Source: Qipengyuania sp. ABI-127-1
GTDB taxonomy: Bacteria; Pseudomonadota; Alphaproteobacteria; Sphingomonadales; Sphingomonadaceae
Assembly (NCBI GenBank): GCA_022953095.1
Contig: JALJCR010000001.1
Location: forward strand, 1,708,501-1,772,500
Direction: 5' to 3'
DNA: 64,000 bases
How positions within the stretch are numbered: position 1 is the first letter of the stretch; every line of letters begins with the position of its first letter. This document shows, one piece after another, positions 54,430-58,685 of this stretch. Made by a program: the position numbers and the translations under genes. The notes beneath the pieces are model-generated. The model did not search any database and was not told the DNA's origin. It saw only the letters and a program-made list of their open reading frames with translations.

Positions 54430-54457
54430 TTGGCTTATGGGCACACTGGTCTAAATG
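54430..54457 (+). promoter_or_regulatory. Possible housekeeping promoter for yqeY
   Basis: TTGGCT at 54430-54435, a 16-base spacer, and TAAATG at 54452-54457 form a plausible sigma-70-type promoter 38 bases before the yqeY ATG. Confidence 0.35.
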
Positions 54458-54495
54458 AGCCGGTGAAATCAGACACCAACCACCCGGGAAACCCA

Positions 54496-54948
54496 ATGCT
54501 GCGCGAAAAAATCCAGGCCGAAACCGTCACCGCCATGAAGGCCAAGGACAAGGAACGCACCGCCGCGCTGCGCCTGATCGGCGCCAAGATCAAGGACCGC
54601 GACATCGAACTGCGCACGGCGGAGACCAAGCCCGAGGACGACGCATTGGTCACCGACGTGCTGCTCAAGATGGCGAAGCAGCGCCGCGAATCGATCGAGA
54701 TGTACGAGGACGGCGGCAGGCAGGAACTGGCCGATAAGGAAAAGGCCGAACTGGCCGTGATCGAAGAATTCCTGCCCAAACAGATGAGCGAGGAGGAGAC
54801 CCGCGCCGCGATCGCCGCGATCAAGGCCGACCTCGACGCCGAGGGCATGAAGGACATGGGCCGCGTGATGGGGGAACTTAAGAGCCGTCACGGCGCTACT
54901 CTGGACATGAGCAAGGCCAGCGGGCTGGTAAAGGAAGCGCTTTCATGA
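54496..54948 (+). CDS. GatB/YqeY-domain protein
   Basis: A 150-residue YqeY family protein, resembling the tail domain of GatB. Seen: TAMKAKDKERTAALRLIGAK, QRRESIEMYEDGGRQELADK, EFLPKQMSEEE and MGRVMGELKSRHG. Its role is not settled; an amidotransferase-like link to tRNA has been suggested. yqeY next to dnaG and rpoD is a conserved arrangement, here interrupted by three genes. ATG at 54496. The stop overlaps the following lipoprotein start (ATGA). Confidence 0.92.
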   Translation: MLREKIQAETVTAMKAKDKERTAALRLIGAKIKDRDIELRTAETKPEDDALVTDVLLKMAKQRRESIEMYEDGGRQELADKEKAELAVIEEFLPKQMSEEETRAAIAAIKADLDAEGMKDMGRVMGELKSRHGATLDMSKASGLVKEALS

Positions 54949-55703
54949 ACAGGATTTCGGTCGCCCTCCCCCTCGCCCCGGCGCTCGCTCTGATGCTGGC
55001 CGCCTGCGGTTCCGATGCGGACGATCCACCGACCGATCTTGAAACCGCCGAAAGCGACGGCGCTGCTGAAGCGCTGGCGCGCAATATCGAGGCGGTAGAT
55101 TTTCTCGATCTTGCACTGGGTGCGAAGATCGTCGGCCCACAGGGGCCGGAAGTGGAAGCCGCGCTGTCCAATCCGGAAGGTAATTTCGCCGATATGCGTA
55201 GTTATGTCGCCTGCCCGGCGGGCATGGCCGAATGCGACCCGGCGACCGCGCCCGAGGGCACGGTCTACACCTATGTCCACGTGGTCTATCCGGGCGAGGA
55301 CAACCAGCCCGACAGTGGTAGCGGCGAAGGCGCGGATTCCTCCGATGTCGAGCGCGCCACGGCTTTTCGCATGACGCGCCCGGCCATCGGCTTCACAGGC
55401 GCGGTCGGCTACTCCAAGGACGAGGCGATGGCCGCGATCGGCGCCAAGGCCGATGTCGTGATTACCTGCGACGATGGCGCATTGGTCTGGACCGTCAGCG
55501 CAGGCGATGGCGGCGACCAGTGGGAACAGGCCGAACCGCTTACCTTCTGGTGGCAATCGACGGTGCCGCCTGCCGGTCCGGTCGAGGCTTATGCGATCGA
55601 GGCCAACTATACGATGGCCATGGGAAATGGGCCTTACCCCGGCGAGGCACCCGATGCGGTCAATGCCTGCGATCGCGACACCGTTCCCGGTCGCGAAGGA
55701 TGA
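54945..55703 (+). CDS. Predicted lipoprotein, tandem paralogue 1
   Basis: A 252-residue lipoprotein with lipobox MLAACG. Body conserved with the next gene: GAKIVGPQGPEVE, SYVACPAGMAECDP, PEGTVYTYVHVV, GFTGAVGYSKDEA, LTFWWQSTVPPAGPVEAY. The two cysteines in ACPAGMAEC could form a disulfide. I recognise no named family. Probably periplasmic, tethered to a membrane. It is translationally coupled to yqeY and lies between it and dnaG. Confidence 0.75.
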   Translation: MNRISVALPLAPALALMLAACGSDADDPPTDLETAESDGAAEALARNIEAVDFLDLALGAKIVGPQGPEVEAALSNPEGNFADMRSYVACPAGMAECDPATAPEGTVYTYVHVVYPGEDNQPDSGSGEGADSSDVERATAFRMTRPAIGFTGAVGYSKDEAMAAIGAKADVVITCDDGALVWTVSAGDGGDQWEQAEPLTFWWQSTVPPAGPVEAYAIEANYTMAMGNGPYPGEAPDAVNACDRDTVPGREG

Positions 55704-55707
55704 CCCG

Positions 55708-56400
55708 ATGATGCGCTTCGTGTCCCTTGCCGTATCCGGAATTGCCTTTGCCCTGGCCTCGTGCGGCTCTCCCGAGCCGGAGCCCGCGCCTACCCCGACC
55801 CCGACCGTCGCTGCACCGCGCACCCTCGTCGGCGCAGATCTCGATCTGTCGACGCTCGGCGCGAAGATCGCCGGGCCGCAAGGATCGGAGGTCGAAACTG
55901 TCCTCAGCGCACGCAACCGCCAGGTCGGTACGCTGGTAAGCTACGTCGCTTGCCCCGCCGGTGTGGAGGACTGCAAGCCAGGCGAGATGCCCGAAGGGAC
56001 AGTCTACACTTATGTTCACACGGTGACGCTGGCAGAAGAAAGCGACACCAGAGACGCTGACGACGGCCCCGAAGTCGTGGAAGCCCCACCCACCTTGTTT
56101 CGCACGATACGCAAGGCAGCGGGCTTCAACCAGTCGATCGGGTATTCCACCGCCGAGGCCGAGGCCGTGCTGGGCGATCCCGATGCGATCTCGATCAGCA
56201 ACGATAATGGCAGCCTGATCTGGCGCGTGGTTCGCGGATCGGGATGGAAGCCCGGCGGCACGGTGACCTTCTGGTGGCAATCGACCTTGCCCCCGCAAGG
56301 ACCGGCAGAAGCCTATCTGTTCGAAGTCGACGGCAATCAGGTCGCGGCGACAGGCCCCTTCCCGCCTGAGGATAAGCCTGTGGAGGGCTCGCGCAACTAA
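55708..56400 (+). CDS. Predicted lipoprotein, tandem paralogue 2
   Basis: A 230-residue paralogue of the preceding gene: lipobox ALASCG, a proline/threonine linker (PEPEPAPTPTPTVAAP), then GAKIAGPQGSEVE, SYVACPAGVEDCKP, PEGTVYTYVHTV, GFNQSIGYSTAEAEA, and VTFWWQSTLPPQGPAEAY. The first ATG at 55708 and a second at 55711 are adjacent. Starts four bases after the stop of paralogue 1. Same unknown role; the strong match of the ACPAG...C core suggests a shared ligand or partner. Confidence 0.75.
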   Translation: MMRFVSLAVSGIAFALASCGSPEPEPAPTPTPTVAAPRTLVGADLDLSTLGAKIAGPQGSEVETVLSARNRQVGTLVSYVACPAGVEDCKPGEMPEGTVYTYVHTVTLAEESDTRDADDGPEVVEAPPTLFRTIRKAAGFNQSIGYSTAEAEAVLGDPDAISISNDNGSLIWRVVRGSGWKPGGTVTFWWQSTLPPQGPAEAYLFEVDGNQVAATGPFPPEDKPVEGSRN

Positions 56401-56409
56401 TTGCACGGA

Positions 56410-56436
56410 CCACTCGACTTCGCTCGAGGCGAACGG
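56410..56436 (+). repeat. GIY-YIG-associated repeat, copy 1
   Basis: A 27-base copy starting CCACTCGACTTCGCTCGAGG and ending CGAACGG, the more diverged member. With copy 2 it forms an inverted doublet that can fold into a hairpin, 24 bases apart. Confidence 0.8.
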
Positions 56437-56460
56437 CACACTGGTGGAATCCCAAAACAT

Positions 56461-56489
56461 CCGTTCGTGTCGAGCGCAGTCGAGACACG
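56461..56489 (-). repeat. GIY-YIG-associated repeat, copy 2
   Basis: A 29-base copy, CCGTTCGTGTCGAGCGCAGT followed by CGAGACACG, in inverted orientation. It matches copy 3 at 28 of 29 bases once reverse-complemented. It ends 19 bases before the GIY-YIG start codon. Confidence 0.9.
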
Positions 56490-56507
56490 TTGCCCTGGAC
56501 AACCGCG

Positions 56508-56828
56508 ATGCCCTTCTGGTGCTACATTCTGAAATGCGCTGACGGGAAGTATTACACCGGCCCTACCGACGATCTTGATCGCCGAATTGCCGAGCACCAT
56601 CAGGGTGGATATTACAGCTTCACGACTCGGCGCCGCCCCGAGAAACTGGTCTGGGCCGACGAATTCCCAACGCGTGACGAAGCGCTCGAAAGCGAATTGC
56701 GCGTGAAGAAATGGTCTCGCGCGAAGAAGGAAGCGCTGGCGTCAGGGGATTGGGATCGATTGTCCCATTTCGCCAAACCACCGCGCGAGCGTGTCTCGAC
56801 TGCGCTCGACATGAACGGATATGGGTAA
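56508..56828 (+). CDS. GIY-YIG nuclease-family protein (YhbQ-like)
   Basis: A 106-residue single-domain GIY-YIG protein. The fold starts WCYILKCADGKYYTGPTDDL, with the GIY strand (CYI), the YYTG version of YIG, the catalytic Arg (DLDRRIAEHHQGG) and Glu (ESELRVKKWSRAKKEAL). The last ~16 residues (RERVSTALDMNGYG) are encoded by repeat copy 3, so the C terminus is formed by repeat DNA. ATG at 56508 gives the standard start. The gene sits between inverted repeats in an otherwise conserved yqeY-dnaG region. Not an intron or intein homing enzyme: nothing is interrupted. Confidence 0.87.
   Translation: MPFWCYILKCADGKYYTGPTDDLDRRIAEHHQGGYYSFTTRRRPEKLVWADEFPTRDEALESELRVKKWSRAKKEALASGDWDRLSHFAKPPRERVSTALDMNGYG
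56790..56818 (+). repeat. GIY-YIG-associated repeat, copy 3
   Basis: A 29-base copy, CGTGTCTCGACTGCGCTCGA followed by CATGAACGG, inverted relative to copy 2 with one mismatch. It lies within the end of the GIY-YIG coding sequence. Confidence 0.9.
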
Positions 56829-56831
56829 GCG

Positions 56832-58685
56832 GTGCTAAGTCCCCAATGGCTCGACGAATTGCGCATGCGGACCACGCTTTCCGCCGTGATCGGTCGCACC
56901 CTGCGGCTGACCAAGGCAGGGCGCGAGTTCAAGGCCTGCTGTCCGTTCCATAACGAGAAGACACCCAGCTTCTATGTCAATGACGAGAAGGGCTTCTACC
57001 ACTGCTTCGGCTGCGAGGCGCATGGCGATGCGATCCGCTGGCTGACCGACCAGCGCGGCATGCCCTTTATGGATGCAGTGAAGGAATTGGCCGCGGAGGC
57101 CGGGATGGAAGTCCCCGCCCCCGACCCTCAAGCCGCCAAGCGAGCGGAAAAACGCGCCAGCCTGCACGATGTGACCGCCGCCGCGCAGGAGTGGTTCGAG
57201 AGCAATTTGCGGGAGGCGGATGGCATTCAGGCACGCAGCTATCTCGGGCGGCGCGGATTTTCCGATGCGACCATCCGCGAATTCGGCTTCGGTTATGCGC
57301 CCGAAGACCGGCAGGCGCTGAAGCGCGCGCTGAGCAAGTTCGAGGAGCCCATGCTGATCGAAGCGGGCATGCGGATCACGGTCGAGGACAAGGAACCCTA
57401 TGACCGCTTTCGCGGGCGCCTGATGCTGCCGATCCACGACACGCGCGGGCGCGTGATCGCCTTCGGCGGGCGCATTCTCGACAGCGATGCCAATCCCAAG
57501 GCGCCGAAATACCTCAACAGCCCCGACACGCCGCTCTTCGACAAAGGCCGCACGCTCTACAATCTCCACCGCGCCGCGCCCGCAGCGCGGCAAAGCGGGC
57601 GGATGATCGTGGTCGAAGGCTATATGGACGCGATCGCGCTGGCCAATGCGGGTATCCGGGAGGCGGTTGCTCCGCTCGGCACGGCGCTGACCGAAAACCA
57701 GATCGAGCTGCTGTGGCGGCAGGTCGAACGACCGATTCTGTGTTTCGATGGCGACAATGCCGGCCAGCGCGCTGCCATGCGGGCGATATCGCGCGCGCTG
57801 CCGATGCTGCGGCCCGGCCATTCGCTGGCGATCGTGCGCCTTCCGGCCGGGCTCGACCCGGACGATCTGATCCGCGAGAAAGGCGTCGGCGCGCTCGAGG
57901 AACTGCTCGCGCATCCCGCGAGTCTGCTCGACACGCTGTGGGATTTCGAAAAGGCGGCGGCGCCGCTCGATTCCCCGGAGGAGAAAGCGGGCCTCAAAGC
58001 GCGGCTTCTCGGCCATGTCGACAGCATTCAGCACCCCGATATCGGTCCGCTCTACAAACGCGAACTGCTCGAGCGCTTCTCGGCCTTCGCCTTCCCGCCC
58101 CGCCCACAGCGCGAATTCCGGTCTCGCGGAGACTGGAAGAAGGGGCAATTCAAACAACCCGCGCCAATGCTGTCGCCCGAAGCGCGCGATAGCCTGACCC
58201 GCGCGATGCAGGGCGGTGCGCGCGATGCGCTGACCCGCGCGGTGATTGCGGGACTGGTCAAATATCCCGACCAGATCCTGCGCCACGAAGAAGCGCTCTC
58301 AGAACTGGCCAGGCGTGACCAAAATGTCGGTCCGGCGCTCGATTCACTGCTCGAAGCCGCAGAGACGCTTGATTTGTCCGCGCAATCGACCATATCGCTC
58401 GAACGAGGCCTTCCCGCCCCACCGGCAAAAGCTCATTTCGCCTTCCTCGATGAAGGCACCGACCCGGTTGATGCGCGCGAGGATCTGGCCGAGGCCGTAT
58501 CGTTGCTGGTCGAAAGACCGGCGCTGGAGGCTGCGCTTGGCGCGGCCACAGTGCGTTTCGAACGCGATCCGGAAGGCTCCATCGCTGAACAGGCCCGATT
58601 GCGCGAGCGGTTGCTGGCACTAAATGAGCGGTTGAAGCGTTTTGGTCGCAGGAAAGCCGCAGCGGACGGCGAATCGGATACTTGA
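56832..58685 (+). CDS. dnaG: DNA primase
   Basis: A 617-residue DnaG that makes primers for replication. Zinc-binding domain at the start with CPFHNEKTPSF and FYHCFGC (C37, H40, C58, C61). Catalytic core with RGRLMLPI (near 195) and the TOPRIM motifs VVEGYMDAIALA and CFDGDNAGQRAA (DGD). C-terminal helicase-binding region from ~430. Start GTG at 56832, three bases after the GIY-YIG stop; it gives the conserved LSPQWLDELRMRT start. Precedes rpoD as in many bacteria. Confidence 0.96.
   Translation: MLSPQWLDELRMRTTLSAVIGRTLRLTKAGREFKACCPFHNEKTPSFYVNDEKGFYHCFGCEAHGDAIRWLTDQRGMPFMDAVKELAAEAGMEVPAPDPQAAKRAEKRASLHDVTAAAQEWFESNLREADGIQARSYLGRRGFSDATIREFGFGYAPEDRQALKRALSKFEEPMLIEAGMRITVEDKEPYDRFRGRLMLPIHDTRGRVIAFGGRILDSDANPKAPKYLNSPDTPLFDKGRTLYNLHRAAPAARQSGRMIVVEGYMDAIALANAGIREAVAPLGTALTENQIELLWRQVERPILCFDGDNAGQRAAMRAISRALPMLRPGHSLAIVRLPAGLDPDDLIREKGVGALEELLAHPASLLDTLWDFEKAAAPLDSPEEKAGLKARLLGHVDSIQHPDIGPLYKRELLERFSAFAFPPRPQREFRSRGDWKKGQFKQPAPMLSPEARDSLTRAMQGGARDALTRAVIAGLVKYPDQILRHEEALSELARRDQNVGPALDSLLEAAETLDLSAQSTISLERGLPAPPAKAHFAFLDEGTDPVDAREDLAEAVSLLVERPALEAALGAATVRFERDPEGSIAEQARLRERLLALNERLKRFGRRKAAADGESDT

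Follow-up and report, generated by a model that had tools for sequence, protein, structure and literature searches.

Upstream of dnaG in Qipengyuania sp. ABI-127-1, a small GIY-YIG nuclease gene is flanked by inverted repeats, one of which encodes residues near the end of the protein. A sequence-only reading took this unit for a REP-type element moved together with, or by, its nuclease. Is the nuclease a partner of the repeats, or merely their neighbor? The unit is best explained as a minimal element of two parts, in which inverted REP-like arms, tails inward, surround one small GIY-YIG gene; the nuclease is probably the cognate partner, and the most likely mobilizer, of the repeat class. The window denotes the whole 64,000-nucleotide stretch that was analyzed, to which all positions refer.

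The nuclease gene and its R1 arms

The whole unit spans positions 56412–56828, upstream of dnaG (56832–58685, plus strand), and contains a 29-base repeat that we named R1; yqeY (54430–54948, plus strand) forms the left anchor of the interval. The nuclease gene (56508–56828, plus strand; ATG at 56508, stop codon at 56826–56828) encodes a UPF0213/Slx1-like protein of 106 residues, this ATG being preferred over a longer TTG open reading frame starting at 56490. Copy 2 of R1 (56461–56489, plus strand) is the 5′ flanking arm, with its CCGTTCG end pointing outward, and copy 3 (56790–56818, minus strand) is the 3′ flanking arm. As had been read from the letters, copy 2 and the reverse complement of copy 3 are identical at 28 of 29 bases, and copy 1 (56412–56436, minus strand) is the inverted neighbor of copy 2. 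Copy 1 is a weaker match and stands head-to-head with copy 2. Copy 3 forms part of the 3′ end of the gene and encodes RVSTALDMNG in frame near the protein end, in a C-terminal tail that is modeled with low confidence. The arms reach 31 nt with 97% complementarity and a spacing of 300 nt. The 5′ arm stops 18 bp before the ATG and the 3′ arm just ahead of the stop codon.

The 18-base core of R1 occurs twice in the window at up to three mismatches, with 0.11 occurrences expected; two were reached in 1 of 100 shuffles. A 21-mer of R1 has 16 copies in the genome at up to two mismatches, compared with none for a reversed-pattern control. A single R1 unit folds no better than shuffles (z of −0.48 and +1.08), and the stretch comprising copies 1 and 2 yields a strong fold (z of −4.83). 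No Rfam family reached the gathering threshold in 56301–56950, by which a known RNA family was ruled out at the locus.

The window protein matches the Pfam GIY-YIG domain (E = 1e-17) and has the conserved Tyr, Arg and Glu of that domain. It is the sole domain that Pfam finds in the protein, with no NUMOD C-terminal DNA-binding modules. Residues of active-site type are conserved: Tyr16, His30, Glu63 and Lys67 are present in 77 of 77 sequences (76 of the 80 named relatives introduced below and the window sequence), and Arg26 in 76. Profile and fold comparisons both place the UPF0213 proteins 1zg2 and 1ywl closest among solved structures; Slx1 chains rank after them by fold, with E-values of 0.027 and weaker. 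This Slx1-like fold, as modeled, suggests recognition of branched DNA. The AlphaFold2 model has a mean pLDDT of 70.3 and a pTM of 0.61, and residues 95–106 fall below a pLDDT of 50, so that what the repeat encodes is apparently no more than a disordered tail. PADLOC and NCBIfam gave no match, and PHROGs a single weak homing-endonuclease match, to GIY2, a second nuclease of the genome. In 15 of 21 pairs identity is lower for the nuclease than for the N-terminus of DnaG, which is only a tendency to faster evolution.

The yqeY–dnaG interval, read at first as otherwise conserved, was examined in part: the unit is found in 2 of 30 dnaG loci and is absent upstream of dnaG in the other 28, and the 330 bp before dnaG mostly resemble the end of one and the same small open reading frame, except in one locus (L130), where they resemble the end of yqeY. 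The dnaG start context in the window is unlike that in G005, a relative with an empty site. Between yqeY and the unit lie two open reading frames (54945–55703 and 55708–56400) that share the wording TFWWQST and GPYP/GPFP and look like tandem paralogues; a Pfam search with both gave no match. It is the end of the second that the 330 bp before dnaG resemble in most relatives, by an uncounted impression.

Flanking repeats of related nuclease genes

All five standalone GIY-YIG genes of the window's genome carry inverted arms on both sides, and these arms belong to four repeat classes. They are long in three genes (31, 30 and 40 nt) and shorter in two. Besides R1, R2 (GTCATCCCAGCGAAAGCTGGGATC; 30 nt, 97%) forms the arms of GIY2 (locus L002) and R5 (CGTCGCCCCTGCGAAGGCAGGGGCCCAG; 40 nt, 93%) those at L005; both fold as hairpins. 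A repeat of the type GTCATTGCGAGC...CAATCCAG provides the arms at L003 (16–17 nt) and at L004 (13 nt), the latter scoring below 14, the cut-off of the covariation test. Flanking arms are absent from a sixth GIY-YIG match, a 740-aa frame taken as uvrC. The suggestion that other copies of the 29-mer flank other GIY-YIG genes failed: two of the 16 R1 copies flank the window gene, and the copies nearest to the remaining four genes lie more than 50 kb away. The 29-mer itself was therefore rejected as a marker of other GIY-YIG genes. Each nuclease has its own repeat class; the general idea behind that suggestion is well supported, its literal form is not. The genome gave no match for Y1_Tnp/RAYT, and a RAYT was accordingly rejected as mobilizer within it.

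Of at least 374 confirmed matches, we named the best 80 loci as ranked by similarity to the five nucleases of the genome, so that our claim covers this clade and not all bacterial GIY-YIG proteins. An inverted-repeat (IR) score compared 220 bp upstream of each gene with the reverse complement of 320 bp downstream, and several cut-offs were tabulated. Among the best 80 loci, a score of at least 16 was reached by 55 of 79 testable nuclease genes versus 0.058% of 13838 placements drawn at random within these loci, and a score of at least 18 by 50 of 79 versus none of 13838. The corresponding figure for other open reading frames of the same loci was 7 of 900 at a score of at least 16 (1 of the 327 small ones). 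With direct repeats (DR) admitted alongside inverted ones at the same cut-off, 64 of 79 nuclease genes were flanked, compared with 25 of 900 other frames; 15 of the 79 had neither.

Relatives of the window's genome behaved similarly. Inverted or direct repeats scoring at least 16 flank 26 of 29 GIY1-like genes, GIY1 being the nuclease type of the window, and 27 of 29 GIY2-like genes (25 and 25 by IR alone), each set consisting of 30 loci of which one could not be scored. In ten genomes chosen mostly for being exceptions, flanking repeats accompany 16 of 18 standalone genes versus none of nine uvrC genes, where uvrC was named by frame length, a fragment (L264) was excluded and some loci overlap the relatives' set. 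Escherichia coli yhbQ, of the same wider family, is without flanking repeats (IR 8, DR 9).

Arms of many other GIY-YIG genes have the head, short hairpin and CCA tail of the CGTC-tagged REPs, which are described from five phyla, mostly from alphaproteobacteria, and include the neisserial dRS3 and the rickettsial RPE-4 and RPE-6 (PMC3733652, partial text). At least one strict unit of this kind (CGTC or TGTC head, hairpin, CCA tail) lies within 300 bp in 51 of the best 80 loci, where 2.9 are expected; up to 300 bp from the GIY-YIG domain the density is 2.57 per kb, versus 0.062 per kb elsewhere. A wider scan of the same 80 loci found units on both sides in 36, with the heads of the nearest two pointing outward in 23 of these 36, and none on either side in 27. 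The R1 of the window differs in being outside the class: by sequence it fails the pattern of CGTC head, 8–9 bp stem and CCA tail, and its single unit folds like shuffles.

According to the accessible part of the same source, CGTC REPs seem to be without a dedicated transposase, none being reported for them; transposase genes were what Di Nocera and colleagues examined, and they discussed an early disappearance of the transposase or the use of other enzymes (PMC3733652). GIY-YIG does not occur in that accessible text. Caulobacter crescentus is listed there among the CGTC-positive species, and it has three COG2827 genes whose role was left open (PMC1839093, partial text).

Covariation, copy number and dispersed pairs

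Repeat similarity tracks protein identity. For 74 loci scoring at least 14, four from the window's genome and 70 from the best 80 named, the latter spanning seven named phyla but mostly Pseudomonadota, the Mantel r is 0.27 (2701 pairs, p = 0.001); among the 2359 pairs whose members differ in order, or for which the order is unknown, it is 0.28 (p = 0.0005). A CCCAGC/GCTGGG stem is found in all 11 relatives that are at least 69% identical to GIY2 (in L226 in part), and more distant GIY2 relatives carry, for example, CCCCTGC or CCCGGACTTGATCCGGG; the repeat shifts stepwise within the lineage. GIY1 relatives of at least 71% identity have arms of the R1a type, and both arms of R1a loci share the same loop variant; in G081 R1a is visible upstream only because the contig ends. 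The sister group of GIY1 has mostly CCGTTCG-CCCTGAGCTTGTCGAAGGGC or close variants (R1b).

In a 464-kb genome sample (400 kb of stretches plus the window, up to three mismatches) we counted two R1, the window's own pair, four R2, three R34 and no R5. With so few repeats in the sample, copy numbers rest on whole-genome pattern searches, which were made for R1a, R1b and R2; the relation to gene presence was tested for R1a and R2, at cut-offs for a cognate gene (at least 71% and at least 69% identity) that, like the four-copy limit of the independent-pairs test below, were picked after the data had been seen. Of 118 genomes, the eight with GIY1 of at least 71% identity contain 15, 9, 10, 15, 4, 50, 97 and 28 copies of R1a, whereas ten of the other 110 contain one to four and the rest none (rank test p = 3e-14, uncorrected for the relatedness of the genomes). 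R2 is present in 6–28 copies in the 11 genomes with GIY2 of at least 69% identity, and at least six copies occur in 9 of the 107 others. In three of these nine exceptions (G039, G045 and G051) nearly all the matches listed have CCCCGCGAAAGCGGGG as a variant stem. In G093 the nuclease between the R2-like repeats is broken, and one of the nucleases of G002 (L270), a distant one, has a stem resembling that of R2. The remaining four (G094, 77 copies; G065, 11 copies, in a genome 79% complete; G005, 10; G068, 6) have R2 and no examined standalone nuclease with R2 arms. In G094 some of the 77 copies form close inverted pairs, and the repeats beside its two standalone GIY-YIG genes are of other kinds. 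G045, which is 100% complete, contains 12 R1b and 12 R2-variant copies, and its sole GIY-YIG match is a 643-aa frame taken as uvrC; its repeats may be what is left after a loss of the gene. G045, G094, G065, G005 and G068 have repeats but no nuclease to match, which indicates that repeats can persist beyond their partner or exist with none to be detected. GIY1 presence changed at least five times on a tree built from the dnaG of 35 genomes. Three supported independent pairs all point in the expected direction, and three are too few for significance (sign test p = 0.25).

Outside the unit, 12 of 14 R1 matches are paired with an inverted copy no more than 80 bp away on their tail side, which is where the gene sits in the unit; the unit accordingly resembles one of these pairs with a gene in its middle. 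Empty sites, whose comparison in relatives had been proposed, were found for the gene-less pairs: at four of five compared sites (L011, L014, L015 and L020) the R1 pair is absent from G005, G014 and G016, and at the fifth (L010) G005 carries what resembles another REP. G005 is the closest of 61 genomes compared; G078, which has GIY1 and is closer by DnaG, was left out. Since the four pairs are missing from all three relatives, a recent gain in the window's lineage would most simply account for them, as judged from these sequence comparisons. No clear target duplication was seen at the empty sites. At the L011 site, G014 carries a different, CGTC-type REP (L209) in place of the R1 pair.

GIY1 itself lies directly upstream of dnaG in all seven placeable genomes, the eighth copy being at a contig end. 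The evidence from this locus is therefore patchy presence only, and we make no claim that the whole unit moved. Two findings had been named in advance as speaking against a mobile unit, a gene always at this locus and repeats spread independently of GIY-YIG genes. Within the genus the former is what we see for this nuclease type, and the latter is contradicted.

A probable cognate nuclease, its alternatives and known systems

The proposal of a REP-type element moved with or by its GIY-YIG nuclease is well supported by the arms at five of five genes and at 55 of 79 loci, by covariation and by copy number. It applies more broadly than first put forward, and its specific form gave way to one in which each nuclease has a repeat class of its own. 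We infer that the nuclease mobilizes the repeats. It would recognize the hairpin or cruciform made by its repeat pair and cut there, repair or replication would copy the pair to new intergenic sites, and the dispersed pairs would represent copies of the gene-carrying unit that are not autonomous, comparable to REPINs (a term from PMC3116915, partial text). We offer as a speculation that R1 is recognized as a pair and the CGTC type as a single hairpin, which would fit the poor hairpin of single R1 and the good folding of copies 1 and 2 together, of R2 and of R5.

The recurrence of a nuclease with its own repeat across many bacteria makes the family a candidate for the so far missing machinery behind the spread of a large class of bacterial repeats. 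On balance we favor, if by a modest degree, the wider proposition that standalone GIY-YIG genes are the long-missing mobilizers of CGTC-type and related REPs, forming phylum-spanning elements of about 0.4 kb (REP, Slx1-like nuclease, REP) whose sole enzyme would be a structure-recognizing nuclease and which would have arisen independently of the HUH-based RAYT/REP pairs.

The arms could instead be cis-acting control or protection sequences of the nuclease gene, such as terminators, insulators or autoregulatory sites, that another enzyme spreads. We regard this as unlikely, despite an arm placement in the window, close before the start codon and before the stop codon, that would suit such a role, and a reported location of REPs mainly downstream of coding regions (PMC3733652, partial text). 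The five genomes whose repeats no nuclease carries also agree with it. What it leaves unexplained is that R1a and R2 copy number mostly follows the cognate gene, that dispersed R1 repeats are paired in inverted, tail-in orientation and that mirror-image arms stand on both sides of the gene; moreover, the genome has no Y1/RAYT match.

Still less probable is homing, in which the nuclease would cut repeat-less alleles at a fixed site and recombination would copy the unit in, leaving dispersed repeats as by-products. Homing enzymes do occur among GIY-YIG nucleases (PMC1564403, partial text), and GIY1 is patchily present and confined to the dnaG site wherever it can be placed. The GIY-YIG domain is, however, the only one that Pfam shows, gene-less pairs lie at several unrelated sites, and other nucleases sit at other loci, each with its own repeats. 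That genes and repeats simply gather in tolerant intergenic sites without a functional link is the reading to which we give the smallest chance, and it is already disfavored by the single small open reading frame in 327 with comparable arms, by covariation across orders and by the copy-number relation; in its favor, one intergenic site (L011) holds different REPs in different species.

A cognate nuclease would most closely resemble the RAYT/REP pairs, or REPtrons, with which the unit shares a gene between inverted REPs, covariation, cognate copy number and dispersed gene-less inverted pairs; it differs in that its enzyme is a GIY-YIG protein of about 95–106 residues and not an HUH/Y1 tyrosine transposase (PMC2817692, partial text). 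Nunvar and colleagues characterized RAYTs by flanking inverted REPs, coevolution, a presence correlating with cognate abundance and fast evolution (PMC2817692, partial text). Work on TnpAREP is given in PMC8266576 (partial text). GIY-YIG genes lie between two inverted REPs (15 of 79 having no flanking repeat at a score of 16), enzyme and repeat coevolve (Mantel test; matched loop variant in both R1a arms) and repeat abundance follows the gene, with the exceptions of G045, G094, G065, G005 and G068 and few independent events; an HUH/Y1 tyrosine transposase is lacking, as the protein is GIY-YIG and Y1_Tnp is absent from the genome. Three of the four founding RAYT criteria thus describe, with these exceptions, an unrelated nuclease, which for that reason does not count as a RAYT, though it would act in a similar way.

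In sequence and fold the enzyme belongs with the UPF0213/YhbQ/Slx1 GIY-YIG family, from which it is set apart by its arms, E. coli yhbQ having none. MITEs and their parent transposons consist of gene-less copies and a gene-carrying unit with common terminal inverted repeats. The R1 gene unit and the gene-less R1 pairs likewise have common inverted ends, but no clear target-site duplication is seen at the compared sites and the nuclease is not of a known transposase family.

We found no literature linking GIY-YIG to REPs in a partial search that lay outside most subscription journals and preprints and is no proof of absence. The string 'palindrom' does not occur in the accessible text of a 2006 GIY-YIG survey (PMC1564403), nor 'nuclease' and 'transposase' in that of a 2025 REP survey (PMC12306157); one paper with both RAYT and GIY-YIG treats them, in its accessible part, as separate accessory genes. 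If the nuclease is indeed cognate, a purified protein of about 100 residues would allow the question of the CGTC-REP mobilizer to be tested, REPs would have acquired enzyme partners of unrelated chemistry on at least two occasions, and the multi-copy gene family left open in Caulobacter (PMC1839093, partial text) would gain a role.

Modified units were observed at a few loci. At L236 (G058:C5) the REP, GIY-YIG, REP unit is present as a tandem duplicate (705 columns, 93.6%), and a 97-bp repeat stretch recurs between the two units and in the sequence surrounding them. In the R1b sister group, the GIY-YIG frame of L142 (1501–2739) and L155 (1501–2751) runs through the 3′ repeat into an S4 and PseudoU_synth_2 (RluD-like) protein, giving a single open frame of 412–416 aa with a repeat-encoded linker. 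Open frames of 415–430 aa at the matches suggest a similar GIY-YIG/RluD-like fusion in G074, G035, G070, G026 and G092.
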